64,000 nt of DNA. Origin: Seonamhaeicola sp. GTDB taxonomy: Bacteria > Bacteroidota > Bacteroidia > Flavobacteriales > Flavobacteriaceae. Where the stretch lies: positions 1 to 64,000 of the forward strand of contig NZ_JANQJQ010000043.1 in NCBI RefSeq assembly GCF_028281565.1, written 5' to 3'. A program made the position numbers and the translations under genes. Position 1 is the stretch's first letter; the number at the start of each line of letters is the position of its first letter. The notes under the pieces are model-generated. The model made no database searches and was not told the origin of the DNA. It was given only the letters and a program-made list of their open reading frames with translations. Below are positions 9,578-13,052 of the stretch, one piece after another.

Positions 9578-10705
9578 ATGAATACTAATAAAACTTTTAG
9601 AAAAGGGTTCGTTTTTAAAACTTATGAAGCACCTCATAAATCACCTTTTGATACACTTTTTGAGATTTTTAAGGAATTAATAACCCACACTTCCGGTGAT
9701 TTTGAGGAAGCCATTAGCTGGTTAAGAGAATTGGATAAGGAATACGAATTAACTACGCCTGATTATACCATTGAAGATTTTATAGAAGATTTAAAAAGGA
9801 AAGGATATTTAAGAGAAGAGATTGACCCGGATGGAAATGGTACACTTGCCATTACCGCAAAAACCGAACGGGCCATTCGTCAACAGGCCTTAGATCAGAT
9901 TTTTGGAAAAATAAAACGTAGCGGGCAGGGTAATCATAAAAGTAAAAGTCCTGGAATAGGTGATGAGCATACCGGGGATTTTAGGAGTTACCAATTCGGG
10001 GATGCTTTGGATAAGGTTTCTATGACCGAAAGCCTGAAAAATGCTCAAATTAATCATGGTATTTCAGATTTTACACTTTCTGAAGACGATTTAGTGGTTG
10101 AAGAAACGTTGCACAAGTCTCAAATGAGTACGGTATTAATGATAGATATCAGCCACAGCATGATTTTGTATGGCGAGGATCGGATTACGCCTGCAAAAAA
10201 AGTAGCAATGGCATTGGCAGAGTTAATTACAACACGTTATCCTAAAGATACTTTAGATATTCTGGTTTTTGGCAATGATGCCTGGCGGATAGACATTAAA
10301 GATCTGCCTTATTTAAAAGTAGGTCCTTATCATACGAACACAGTGGCCGGATTACAATTGGCTATGGATTTGCTGCGACGAAAACGAAACACCAATAAAC
10401 AAATCTTTATGATTACCGATGGTAAACCAAGCTGTTTGCGTTTACCGGATGGGCAGTATTATAAAAACAGCATGGGCTTAGACACACATATAGTTAATAA
10501 ATGTTATATGATGGCGCAACAGGCACGAAAACTACATATTCCCATAACTACTTTTATGATTGCAAGAGACGAATACCTAATGCAGTTTGTTAGGGAGTTT
10601 ACTTATGCAAATCAGGGGAAAGCTTTTTATACTGGCATAAAAGGGCTTGGAGAAATGATCTTTGAAGATTATGAAACTAATAGAAAAAAGAGAATAAAAG
10701 GCTAG
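9578..10705 (+). CDS. VWA-domain protein, partner of a MoxR-type AAA+ ATPase
   Basis: 375 residues. The first 130 form a charged helical region. The von Willebrand A domain spans about 185-370, with an intact MIDAS metal site: DISHS (D-x-S-x-S) and later ITDGKPS. There is no signal peptide or membrane helix, so the protein is probably cytoplasmic. VWA proteins encoded with MoxR-family AAA+ ATPases form chaperone-like pairs that remodel or insert cofactors into client proteins. The partner gene begins at 11592, but 886 bases of repeats and a DUF559 gene now separate them. The client is unknown. Confidence 0.85.
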   Translation: MNTNKTFRKGFVFKTYEAPHKSPFDTLFEIFKELITHTSGDFEEAISWLRELDKEYELTTPDYTIEDFIEDLKRKGYLREEIDPDGNGTLAITAKTERAIRQQALDQIFGKIKRSGQGNHKSKSPGIGDEHTGDFRSYQFGDALDKVSMTESLKNAQINHGISDFTLSEDDLVVEETLHKSQMSTVLMIDISHSMILYGEDRITPAKKVAMALAELITTRYPKDTLDILVFGNDAWRIDIKDLPYLKVGPYHTNTVAGLQLAMDLLRRKRNTNKQIFMITDGKPSCLRLPDGQYYKNSMGLDTHIVNKCYMMAQQARKLHIPITTFMIARDEYLMQFVREFTYANQGKAFYTGIKGLGEMIFEDYETNRKKRIKG

Positions 10706-10713
10706 TAGTTAAA

Positions 10714-10771
10714 GCTCCTCCCTTTTTGAAAGGGAGGTGGATCCCGATGGCAATCGGGATTCGGAGGGTTT
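10714..10771. repeat. Repeat A, copy 1, of the DUF559 unit
   Basis: Contains CTCCTCCCTTTTTGAAAGGG, then ATCCCGATGGCAATCGGGAT and TCGGAGGGTTT. Two nested inverted repeats (CCTCCCTTT/AAAGGGAGG and ATCCCGAT/ATCGGGAT) make a cruciform-like fold. Near-identical copies lie at 10951-11006 and 11480-11537. Confidence 0.85.
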
Positions 10772-10776
10772 ATGAA

Positions 10777-10833
10777 ATAGTATTTGAAAACTTGGCATTG
10801 GTATTTATGGAAATAAAGGGTAGTTTTAAATAA
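10777..10833 (+). pseudogene. Remnant of a DUF559 gene: last 18 codons only
   Basis: Reads IVFENLALVFMEIKGSFK then a stop, matching the C-terminus MIFENLASVFMEIRDNFK of the intact gene at 11014-11373. It begins almost immediately after repeat A copy 1 and runs directly into repeat B copy 1, as the intact gene does. About 300 bases of coding sequence have therefore been lost by internal deletion while both ends stayed in place. Confidence 0.88.
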
Positions 10834-10901
10834 AACTCCTCTTTCTTCCGATTTTAGAAGAAAATCGGAATTCATTCTTCTCTTAGATTTAAGAGGAGAG
10901 C
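10831..10901. repeat. Repeat B, copy 1, downstream of the DUF559 remnant
   Basis: Starts at the stop codon of the remnant: TAAAACTCCTCTTTCTTCCG, then an inner inverted repeat CCGATTTT...AAAATCGG, then ATTCATTCTTCTCTTAG...AAGAGGAGAGC. The ends CTCCTCTT and AAGAGGAG are complementary. A second copy is at 11371-11440. Confidence 0.85.
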
Positions 10902-10950
10902 AAAAAAAGGGGTGAGTCGTTAAAAGAGGTAAAATTGTAATAACACCAGT

Positions 10951-11006
10951 TCCTCCCTTTTTAAAAGGGAGGTGGATCCCGATGATAATCGGGATTCGGA
11001 GGGTTT
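10951..11006. repeat. Repeat A, copy 2, immediately upstream of the intact DUF559 gene
   Basis: Same architecture as copy 1: TCCTCCCTTTTTAAAAGGGA, then GATCCCGATGATAATCGGGA and TTCGGAGGGTTT. It ends 7 bases before the ATG of the DUF559 gene, so it occupies the whole leader of that gene and may influence its expression. Confidence 0.85.
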
Positions 11007-11013
11007 AAAATAA

Positions 11014-11373
11014 ATGAAGAAAAAGATACACACATTAAAACATTTAAAAGAAAAACGAGCTGACTTAAGAAAGACCCTAACTCCTGCAGAGGCTTTTTTA
11101 TGGAAACATTTAAAAGCCAGACAGTTTGAGGGAAGAAGATTTAATAGACAGCATAGTATTAAGAATTATATTGTTGATTTTTATTGTGCAAAAGAAAAAT
11201 TAATAATAGAACTGGACGGAGAGGGGCATACTAATACCTTGGCAGAGGAAAGGGACAGGGAAAGGACAAGAGTTTTAGAAGAGCTCGGATATACAGTGAT
11301 TAGATTTGAAAATAAAATGATATTTGAAAATTTAGCATCGGTGTTTATGGAAATAAGGGATAATTTTAAATAA
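11014..11373 (+). CDS. DUF559 endonuclease-like protein (Vsr/restriction fold)
   Basis: 119 residues matching the DUF559 family, a PD-(D/E)XK-like fold related to very-short-patch-repair endonucleases. Family motifs are visible: LTPAEAFLWKHLK, the F-R-R-Q-H stretch (here FNRQHSI), IVDFYC with the conserved Asp, IIELDGEGH with the E-x-D pair, then RTRVLEELGYTVIRFEN. The biochemical function of the family is not established. It is enclosed by repeat A (upstream) and repeat B (starting at its own stop codon), and a deleted sibling unit lies directly upstream. It interrupts the VWA/AAA+ pair and is unlikely to belong to that system. Confidence 0.88.
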   Translation: MKKKIHTLKHLKEKRADLRKTLTPAEAFLWKHLKARQFEGRRFNRQHSIKNYIVDFYCAKEKLIIELDGEGHTNTLAEERDRERTRVLEELGYTVIRFENKMIFENLASVFMEIRDNFK

Positions 11374-11440
11374 AACTCCTCTTTCTTCCGATTTTAATGA
11401 AAATCGAAATTCATTCTCCTCTTAAATTTAAGAGGAGAGC
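11371..11440. repeat. Repeat B, copy 2, overlapping the stop codon of the DUF559 gene
   Basis: TAAAACTCCTCTTTCTTCCG, then ATTTTAATGAAAATCG and TTCATTCTCCTCTTAAATTT, closing AAGAGGAGAGC. It begins exactly at the TAA stop, as copy 1 does at the remnant. Complementary ends (CTCCTCTT/AAGAGGAG) suggest a hairpin that may end transcription. Confidence 0.85.
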
Positions 11441-11479
11441 CAAAGAGTAATCAAAAGGCTTAAACTTGAAATAGTTTCG

Positions 11480-11537
11480 GCTCCTCCCTTATTTTTAAGG
11501 GAGGTGGATTCCGATAGTGATCGGAATTCGGAGGGTT
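11480..11537. repeat. Repeat A, copy 3, downstream of the DUF559 unit
   Basis: GCTCCTCCCTTATTTTTAAGG, then GATTCCGATAGTGATCGGAATT and CGGAGGGTT. It is more diverged than copies 1 and 2, but changes in the inner stem are compensated (ATTCCGAT paired with ATCGGAAT), suggesting that the fold is maintained. It lies 55 bases before the AAA+ gene start. Confidence 0.82.
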
Positions 11538-11591
11538 GAAAAATAAAGAAGATACAGCAGAAAAATCAAGCTTTTAAAAAGGGAGCGACAT

Positions 11592-13052
11592 ATGAAACAC
11601 ATCAAAACACTAGGAGCATTAAAAAAAGAGGGATATCAATCAAAGTCAATCAAAGACGAATTACGGGATAACCTTATTGAAAAAATAAAAAATAAAGAAA
11701 CCGCTTTTGAAGGTGTTCACGGTTATGAAAATACCGTAATACCCGAGTTAGAGCGCGCTATTTTGTCACGGCACAATATTAACTTACTTGGATTACGGGG
11801 GCAGGCAAAAACACGCCTGGCACGCTTGATGTTGAATTTACTGGATGAATATATCCCTTTTGTAGGGGGCTCTGAAGTGAATGATGACCCTTTTAACCCA
11901 ATATCCAGATATGCCATTGAATTAATTAAAGAAAAAGGAGATGATACCCCGATTTCCTGGCTACATAGAAGCGAACGTTTTGCGGAAAAACTAGCTACTC
12001 CTGATGTTACGGTAGCCGATATTATTGGAGATGTGGACCCTATTAAAGCAGCAAATTTAAAATTAAGTTATGCTGATGACCGCGTGATTCATTACGGTAT
12101 GATCCCGAGAGCAAACCGATGTATCTTTGTGATCAACGAATTACCCGATCTACAGGCCAGAATTCAGGTAGCCTTATTTAATATTCTGCAGGAAGGTGAC
12201 ATTCAAATAAGAGGGTTTAAAGTCAGGTTACCTTTGGATATTCAATTTTTATTTACAGCAAACCCCGAAGATTATACCAACCGGGGTAGTATAGTCACCC
12301 CATTAAAAGATAGAATTGGGTCACAAATATTAACGCATTACCCGGAGGATATAGAAACAGCACGTTTAATTACAGCGCAGGAAGCCAATTTAGTGGAAAG
12401 TCAGAAAGCCCATGTTATGGTTCCCGATTTGGCCAAGGACCTGTTAGAGCAAATCGTATTTGAAGCTCGAGAAAGTGACTATATAGATATCAAGAGTGGC
12501 GTCAGTGTGAGATTGAGTATAACAGCTTTTGAAAATTTATTGAGTACGGCAGAACGCAGAGCCTTATTGGCAGGAGATGAAAATACCATATTGCGGTTGA
12601 GTGATTTTGTTGGTGTGATTCCTTCCATTACGGGAAAAGTAGAATTGGTATATGAAGGCGAGCAGGAGGGTGCAGCTGTAATTGCTTATAATTTAATTGG
12701 TGAAGCGGTAAAAAGTTTGTTTTCGGAGTACTTTCCAAAAATTGAAAAACTGAAAAAGCAGGACGAAGAAACACCATATGATGATATTATATCGTGGTTT
12801 TTTAATCAAAAAGAGGGGTTTGAATTGCTGGATGATTTAAGGGATAAAGAATACCAGGGGCTCCTGGAAAATATTACACCTCTCGATGATCTGCTGGGGA
12901 AATATCAACCTAATTTAAAAAGAGAGGACAGCTTTTTTGTTAAAGAATTTGTGCTTTGGGCCCTGGCAGAATACAAGCAGTTGAGTAAACATAGATTTTC
13001 AAAAGGTATGAAGTTTAAAGATCCGTATGGGAGTTTTATTAGCAGGATTTAA
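11592..13052 (+). CDS. MoxR/magnesium-chelatase-type AAA+ ATPase
   Basis: 486 residues with an AAA+ domain at about 40-270 and a helical C-terminal half. The P-loop is G67-L-R-G-Q-A-K73-T74, with Ala where the third Gly is usual. The Walker B segment is CIFVINE (N182-E183) instead of hhhhDE. A sensor-1-like FTANPEDYTNRG follows. These atypical residues occur in a conserved subgroup of chelatase-like ATPases, so the protein is probably active, but that needs testing. It pairs with the VWA protein at 9578-10705. Its stop codon abuts the stop codon of the convergent gene at 13053 with no spacer. Confidence 0.85.
   Translation: MKHIKTLGALKKEGYQSKSIKDELRDNLIEKIKNKETAFEGVHGYENTVIPELERAILSRHNINLLGLRGQAKTRLARLMLNLLDEYIPFVGGSEVNDDPFNPISRYAIELIKEKGDDTPISWLHRSERFAEKLATPDVTVADIIGDVDPIKAANLKLSYADDRVIHYGMIPRANRCIFVINELPDLQARIQVALFNILQEGDIQIRGFKVRLPLDIQFLFTANPEDYTNRGSIVTPLKDRIGSQILTHYPEDIETARLITAQEANLVESQKAHVMVPDLAKDLLEQIVFEARESDYIDIKSGVSVRLSITAFENLLSTAERRALLAGDENTILRLSDFVGVIPSITGKVELVYEGEQEGAAVIAYNLIGEAVKSLFSEYFPKIEKLKKQDEETPYDDIISWFFNQKEGFELLDDLRDKEYQGLLENITPLDDLLGKYQPNLKREDSFFVKEFVLWALAEYKQLSKHRFSKGMKFKDPYGSFISRI

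Follow-up and report, generated by a model that had tools for sequence, protein, structure and literature searches.

Short palindromes of unknown origin are found in many bacterial genomes. The locus described here raises the question whether a small gene and the hairpin-forming repeats on either side of it belong together as one unit, and how such a unit would spread. The gene is a member of a family that Pfam labels as a protein of unknown function (DUF559). The repeats, denoted A and B, lie with it in a window of 64,000 nucleotides from the genome of a marine Seonamhaeicola (5.27 Mb, 48 contigs), the window being the whole stretch of DNA that was analysed. The A-DUF559-B block resembles a self-spreading element, of a kind that has received little study.

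Layout of the locus

The block is intergenic and lies between two host-side neighbours, a gene for a VWA-domain protein upstream (9578..10705; PF13519, 2e-8) and an AAA+ gene (11592..13052; Pfam search). All features are on the plus strand. Repeat comparison confirms the order A1 - gene remnant - B1 - A2 - intact DUF559 - B2 - A3, together with the coordinates, as read in an earlier note on this DNA. In repeat A1 (10713..10772) an outer hairpin (CCTCCC..GGGAGG) is joined by a GTGG linker to an inner hairpin; a third arm, CGGAGGGTT, follows, which repeats one side of the outer hairpin. Its copies A2 (10948..11007) and A3 (11480..11539) are 93% and 73% identical to it in ungapped comparison. Repeat B1 (10828..10905) consists of a third arm, an inner hairpin, an outer hairpin, and the tip GGAGAGC; read in reverse, B follows the plan of A (by eye). 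The ends of the element share one plan and lie in inverted orientation: the outer hairpin is conserved, the inner hairpin varies freely but stays paired, and a third arm accompanies them.

The intact DUF559 gene (11014..11373) encodes 119 amino acids and belongs to the family PF04480 (E = 7e-35; 119.6 bits at a cut-off of 20.6). Repeat B2 (11368..11445) begins on its stop codon, as had been noticed before: B2 runs from 11368 and the open reading frame ends at 11373. The first unit was said to have lost about 300 coding bases, and indeed the remnant (10773..10831) keeps the final ~60 bases of the gene while ~305 are gone. The remnant is identified by a direct repeat (D2, 10772-10856 versus 11312-11396) with 88% identity, and over the end of the gene together with B, which falls into two stretches, the units are 88% and 87% identical. 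The spacer between B2 and A3 (11446..11479) bears a weak likeness to the 3' end of the VWA gene (45 of 1000 shuffles are as good); that of the spacer between B1 and A2 (10906..10947) is not significant (446 of 1000).

Folded as single-stranded DNA, the repeats have z-scores against shuffles of -4.6 (A1), -5.6 (A2), -6.0 (A3), -3.2 (B1), and -3.7 (B2), and for each of these three A and two B copies 0 or 1 of 200 shuffles folds as well. The inner stem of A3 differs from ATCCCGAT/ATCGGGAT to ATTCCGAT/ATCGGAAT, a compensated change that the earlier note had remarked on and that proves to be both real and general. The inner stem averages 6.9 pairs over 53 distinct inner segments (from 91 distinct A-like copies), whereas 2640 hybrids made from halves that do not belong together average 2.8. 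The inner stem of A varies, yet its pairing is kept, well beyond A3 alone, whereas the outer hairpin and the third arm are conserved in the A family. A test for the third arm in general is weak, with a match of at least 6 bases in 30% of 191 flanks versus 13% in shuffles. A known structured RNA was rejected (best Rfam E-value 0.36).

The DUF559 protein

The AlphaFold2 model of the DUF559 protein (pLDDT 91.5) has a predicted Vsr/EDxHD-like nuclease fold. A Foldseek search against the PDB retrieves the endonuclease-like protein 3hrl (1.2e-7), which also matches DUF559 by sequence (1.2e-18), as well as the catalytic domain of the endonuclease I-Bth0305I (3r3p; E = 2.6e-4 and 3.0e-4, TM 0.63-0.76) and, weakly, Vsr (1vsr; E = 0.04-0.05). 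Based on the model, the product is likely a DNA-cutting enzyme, an endonuclease of the Vsr/EDxHD type. In an alignment of 47 sequences E26 is invariant, D68 nearly so, and D55, H72, and D81 are each found in at least 90%; E26, D55, H72, and D81 may correspond to the E-D-x-H-D motif.

Among six DUF559 genes located at the VWA site, 13 of the 15 pairs have a dN/dS of 0.03-0.15 (two pairs are not computable; dS is mostly above 1), and as judged from these ratios the gene is under purifying selection. On the tree, a branch of zero length separates the DUF559 of Seonamhaeicola aphaedonensis from that of another genome of the same genus (G005).

Two other identities were considered and rejected: a defence gene, where the best PADLOC match (E = 2.7e-4) covers short stretches of longer models, and a phage gene, where 2 of 50,697 phage records matched with 38% identity. 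Plasmid records matching DUF559 number 39 of 72,556, all below 60% identity.

Hairpins around DUF559 genes in general

The earlier note had proposed that the gene and two hairpins form a recurrent unit, and this is borne out beyond the window. Among DUF559 genes with complete 150-base flanks, drawn from named loci and, for the other genomes, from stand-alone genes, 77 of 121 have a hairpin score of at least 12 on both sides, versus 2 of 86 other open frames from the same loci; at a score of at least 14 the numbers are 37 of 121 and 2 of 86. These rows are not independent, as they include near-duplicates (for example G001/L161, G005/L167) and many orthologues, and 44 of the 121 genes stay below the two-sided score of 12.

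The arrangement of the hairpins differs between lineages. In Muricauda, Allomuricauda, and Flagellimonas (L166, L168-L171, L173, L176-L178, L180) the gene occupies apparently one other site and forms a clade (98/97); there the hairpin tips face the gene, opposite to the window (by eye). The gene is thus on the third-arm side in the window and on the tip side in the Muricauda group and in the RecG and LeuS insertions described below, so that the part that counts as the end of the element differs between lineages. Outside Bacteroidota, strong hairpins flank DUF559 on both sides in one Acidobacteriota locus (L230) and upstream only in another (L227), and a copy in Calditrichota (L233) is without flanking hairpins. 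Of two plasmid copies, the cyanobacterial one (L343) has hairpins on both sides (by eye) and the one from Sphingomonas (L345) has them only downstream. The copy in Pseudanabaena sits within a long gene.

A joint search with the flanks of 18 DUF559 genes from 14 genomes, in which the best 21 candidates per genome were scored, yielded flank copies at other places of the genome in G000, G056, G044, G039, G001, and G033 among the matches listed, with one or two of them in G033 and G001; in the other genomes the copies are mostly local clusters. The nine control stretches of this search include a dispersed repeat (G050) and stretches that contain or match hairpins (G033, G001 at L126, and G056), and therefore no rate is derived from it.

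We also note that the genome of the window has 15 GIY-YIG matches (L328-L342). At least four stand-alone genes of ~100 residues (L331, L333, L335, L338) are bracketed by other short palindromes in inverted orientation, and further ones are partly so (both by eye). Seen by eye and without a control, this is a possible second pairing of a small nuclease with palindromes. At L329 and L340 short GIY-YIG frames adjoin tRNA-like duplicated stretches (by eye).

Dispersed copies of A and B

Repeats A and B are dispersed over the genome of the window. We find at least 21 matches of A (3 in the window) and at least 18 of B (2 in the window) at E <= 1e-4, with hairpin matches to their own reverse strand omitted. 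These are lower bounds, as the starts of two more A copies lie beside B at L042 and L044. The genome has four DUF559 genes, one with A and B and three flanked by different hairpins. Solitary A-B pairs, as anticipated in the earlier note, do exist: nine pairs without the gene are located at other places of the genome. When these are aligned, similarity drops sharply outside GCTCC.. and ..GAGGAGAGC. Their B has its own inner stem, and hence they constitute a sub-family. At none of the nine is there a target-site duplication, the longest direct repeat near the junctions being 0-3 bases, as in shuffles. With both ends and without the gene, the nine pairs resemble MITEs, that is, non-autonomous copies with both ends of their parent, but differ from them in lacking a target-site duplication.

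Several copies of A occur without B (for example L006, L014, L017, and L018). Five copies of B that are 94% identical to B2 are found on four contigs (C8, C10, C23, C45) that end at or near them; where the contig continues (C8, C23 twice, and the starts at L042 and L044), B is followed by A after ~46 bases. The copies at L010, L011, and L037-L044, with B followed by A after ~46 bases, have the upstream stretch in common and the contigs end there; they possibly belong to a larger repeat, present in several copies, at which the assembly broke.

At four of seven dispersed sites (C46j, C29h, C24d, C26e) both flanks adjoin each other in relatives without the A-B unit; at the other three (C4c, C24g, C4m) one flank only is found in relatives. 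The ends of the dispersed units could not be fixed to the base from this comparison, because the intergenic surroundings are too diverged in the relatives.

Across 98 genomes, with at most the best 8 candidates per genome scored, the A-B unit is matched in five, the genome of the window included. In G001, which carries a close relative of the element, all three matches lie at its DUF559 block and no dispersed copies were found in this search. G037 and G051 retain remains of A-B at the same site between VWA and AAA+, and G043 has a single match of 33 bases. Repeats A and B without relation to DUF559, which the earlier note had named as evidence against a link, are thus nearly absent within this search; the exception is G051, whose B remnant at the VWA-AAA+ site is without a DUF559 match.

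The VWA-AAA+ site

The AAA+ gene is present in 45 of the 98 genomes, and in 29 of the 30 loci read the VWA gene is located upstream. Three of these 29 (the window, G001, and G037) have DUF559 in between, and in six the site is empty, with the VWA and AAA+ matches 11-12 bases apart. Of the 80 loci kept from a database search with the DUF559 protein, seven lie at the same site: four from Flavivirga, one from Tamlana, one from Hyunsoonleella aquatilis, and one from an uncultured record, with the same DUF559 as G001. Nine of ten VWA-site proteins form one clade (100/90), with G037 elsewhere, and 21% of bootstrap trees have a single arrival at the site.

In Flavivirga jejuensis three tandem units without the gene precede the gene (by eye), and the VWA 3' end is copied in each of four tested spacers, where 0 of 500 shuffles reach the likeness in every case. 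The local array therefore looks like a tandem duplication that included some of the flank. Such duplication of block and flank is shown for Flavivirga and weakly indicated in the window. Because the deleted tandem units of Flavivirga jejuensis carry these VWA-derived stretches, the first unit of the window is better read as a tandem copy made on the spot that suffered an internal deletion than as the separately moved MITE of the earlier note. Simple tandem duplication, the alternative given there, would suit the first unit, but the dispersed copies of A and B and the gene-less pairs go beyond it.

In two other genomes, G025 (L066) and G042 (L077), different hairpin-like stretches without the gene are seen by eye at the VWA-AAA+ junction. 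The junction may be a hot spot.

In-frame insertions into core genes

At nine of the loci read, DUF559 is found in frame inside a conserved gene: in RecG (G002, G003, G012), in LeuS (G056, G042, G029), and in MetH (G053, G064, G021). In G016 it is located at the end of HisD. Pfam confirms one member each for RecG (L112), a class I synthetase (L095), and histidinol dehydrogenase (L097), and detects pterin- and B12-binding domains in L105; the names LeuS and MetH, as well as the remaining members, are presumed from likeness by eye.

For RecG and LeuS, filled and empty sites with precise ends, as sought in the earlier note, are at hand, which is not the case for the dispersed A-B units. The RecG loop comprises 15-16 residues in five genomes of the genus, that of the window included, and 160-164 residues in G002, G003, and G012, where a hairpin marks either end of the insert (30 loci compared, 5 of them dropped for not matching the pattern). 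The LeuS loop has 15 residues in 19 of 30 loci, and 148 (G056) and 168 (G042) where it is filled by hairpin-DUF559-hairpin. In G008 it is 143 residues long and holds a degraded DUF559, in which by eye neither hairpins nor counterparts of D68 and H72 are seen. At the same loop, the genome of the window, G035, and G001 (L319, L305, L326) have short in-frame inserts that resemble other dispersed repeats (by eye).

The in-frame domains form one clade on the DUF559 tree (99/92). Within it the RecG-borne copies are a firm group (100/99) and the MetH-borne ones a weak group (50/77), and those in LeuS do not form one group (2 changes, 37 of 500 shuffles as low). Overall, proteins with the same site label tend to cluster on the tree, and none of 200 shuffles of the labels gives as low a value.

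Comparison with known systems

REP elements with TnpAREP are genes flanked by palindromes, according to PMC8266576. The block shares with REP/BIME and TnpAREP (RAYT, REPtron) a small gene bordered by palindromes that are dispersed over the genome, and inverted pairs of palindromes dispersed without the gene; the parallel drawn in the earlier note is therefore apt as an analogy. It differs in that the enclosed gene is DUF559, with a predicted Vsr/EDxHD-like fold, rather than an HUH Y1 transposase, in that each end consists of two hairpins and a third arm, and in that no conserved tetranucleotide of the mostly GTAG type was seen by eye before the hairpins of the nine aligned A-B pairs.

The EDxHD enzymes are a family of homing endonucleases, as described in PMC3943268. 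The block has in common with I-Bth0305I the catalytic fold and the way in which a given site in conserved genes is filled in some genomes and not in others. It differs in its own hairpin ends, its gene-less copies, and a protein of 119 residues that is catalytic domain throughout, and no intron or intein was seen.

Rickettsia palindromic elements are palindromes in frame within genes, as described in PMC3733652. Relatives of the window genome likewise have palindromic DNA inside the intact frames of protein genes (RecG and LeuS), which does not apply to the window copy; here the insert also bears a nuclease domain, and the hosts are Flavobacteriales.

The proteins 3hrl and Vsr share the fold, Vsr weakly so. 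We know of no association of either with palindromes. A link between DUF559 and palindromes was absent from the titles and abstract openings of the literature searched, whose coverage leaves out most subscription papers.

How the element may spread

The mobility of the A-DUF559-B block is well supported. In our judgement the block is probably a small palindromic mobile element that encodes a nuclease and functions in the manner of a REPtron, with an EDxHD/Vsr-type nuclease in place of the HUH transposase, and that spreads by break and copy. We infer that the nuclease acts on the hairpins. Most likely it would recognise either the hairpins at the ends or the site of insertion and break the DNA at that place; host repair or replication would then copy the element or its ends, probably the route by which the element spreads. 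Full copies would arise in this way, as would A-B copies that lack the gene and tandem arrays at one place. An old insertion at the VWA-AAA+ site of the window would have been duplicated in tandem, and the first copy would then have lost its ~305 bases. A nuclease break followed by copying during repair would account for tandem units that bear flank, for the missing target duplication, and for the recurrence of the element at one site. This recurrence, like the purifying selection, is also compatible with a mostly vertical descent with losses, which may hold for most of the same-site cases.

Classical homing overlaps with this explanation. The nuclease would cut a single conserved target, such as the junction of VWA and AAA+ or the loop in RecG, repair would copy the block in, and the hairpins would be accessories such as terminators or insulators. 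The same site being filled across several genera and empty in near relatives, the tendency of DUF559 proteins to group by site, and the fold match to I-Bth0305I all point in this direction. So does the near-equidistance of the RecG inserts, with dN of 0.12-0.13 in all three pairs while the N-terminal part of the host protein has 0.07-0.13, a hint of exchange as far as these distances can tell; dating this transfer was attempted and gave no date, because synonymous sites are saturated. Homing leaves unexplained the nine gene-less A-B copies at unrelated sites as well as the covarying inner stem, and we regard it as rather unlikely.

Somewhat less likely still, the nuclease gene is merely carried along by REP-like hairpins that are spread by another agent or by replication slippage, the window being a plain tandem duplication. 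The tandem-looking local arrays, with the VWA 3' ends in the four spacers of Flavivirga jejuensis, the missing target duplication, and the solitary copies of A would agree with this, and so would three weak Y1-like matches in the genome of the window. However, of the 98 genomes 38 have a PF04480 match, which is strong (E <= 1e-20) in 31, and a Y1 transposase match is absent from 8 of these 31 (13 of 38 overall), so that a Y1 transposase (RAYT) is rejected as a general requirement. A passenger gene is also at odds with lineage-specific hairpins that bracket DUF559 far more often than control genes, with the presence of the whole block in RecG and LeuS, and with purifying selection on the gene.

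End-directed transposition as in REPtrons or IS200/IS605, in which the nuclease would process both folded ends and move the element itself, overlaps with the favoured explanation and draws on the inverted ends of one plan, the sharp-ended gene-less copies, and the conserved outer hairpin and third arm next to a variable, paired inner stem in A, but is improbable, as the outer side of the ends differs among lineages and Vsr-type nucleases act on DNA by hydrolysis, with no strand-joining activity known to us.

Implications

The favoured explanation, a nuclease-encoding element that breaks and copies, may extend to a wider class. Tentatively, and with more doubt than for the block itself, small nucleases of unrelated folds (DUF559/EDxHD, and GIY-YIG in the same genome) may each have become mobile elements with hairpin ends that seed dispersed palindromes and enter core genes in frame. 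Such a class would run parallel to RAYT/REP and to inteins, and could have given rise to many of the intergenic palindromes that lack an explanation so far, in Bacteroidota and elsewhere. The in-frame insertions in RecG, LeuS, and MetH provide natural pairs of filled and empty sites, through which the mechanism is open to direct tests. Should DUF559 prove to drive its own hairpins, REP-like repeats would have a further maker that is not of the HUH type, and the function of DUF559 and the origin of the palindromes would be two puzzles with one answer.
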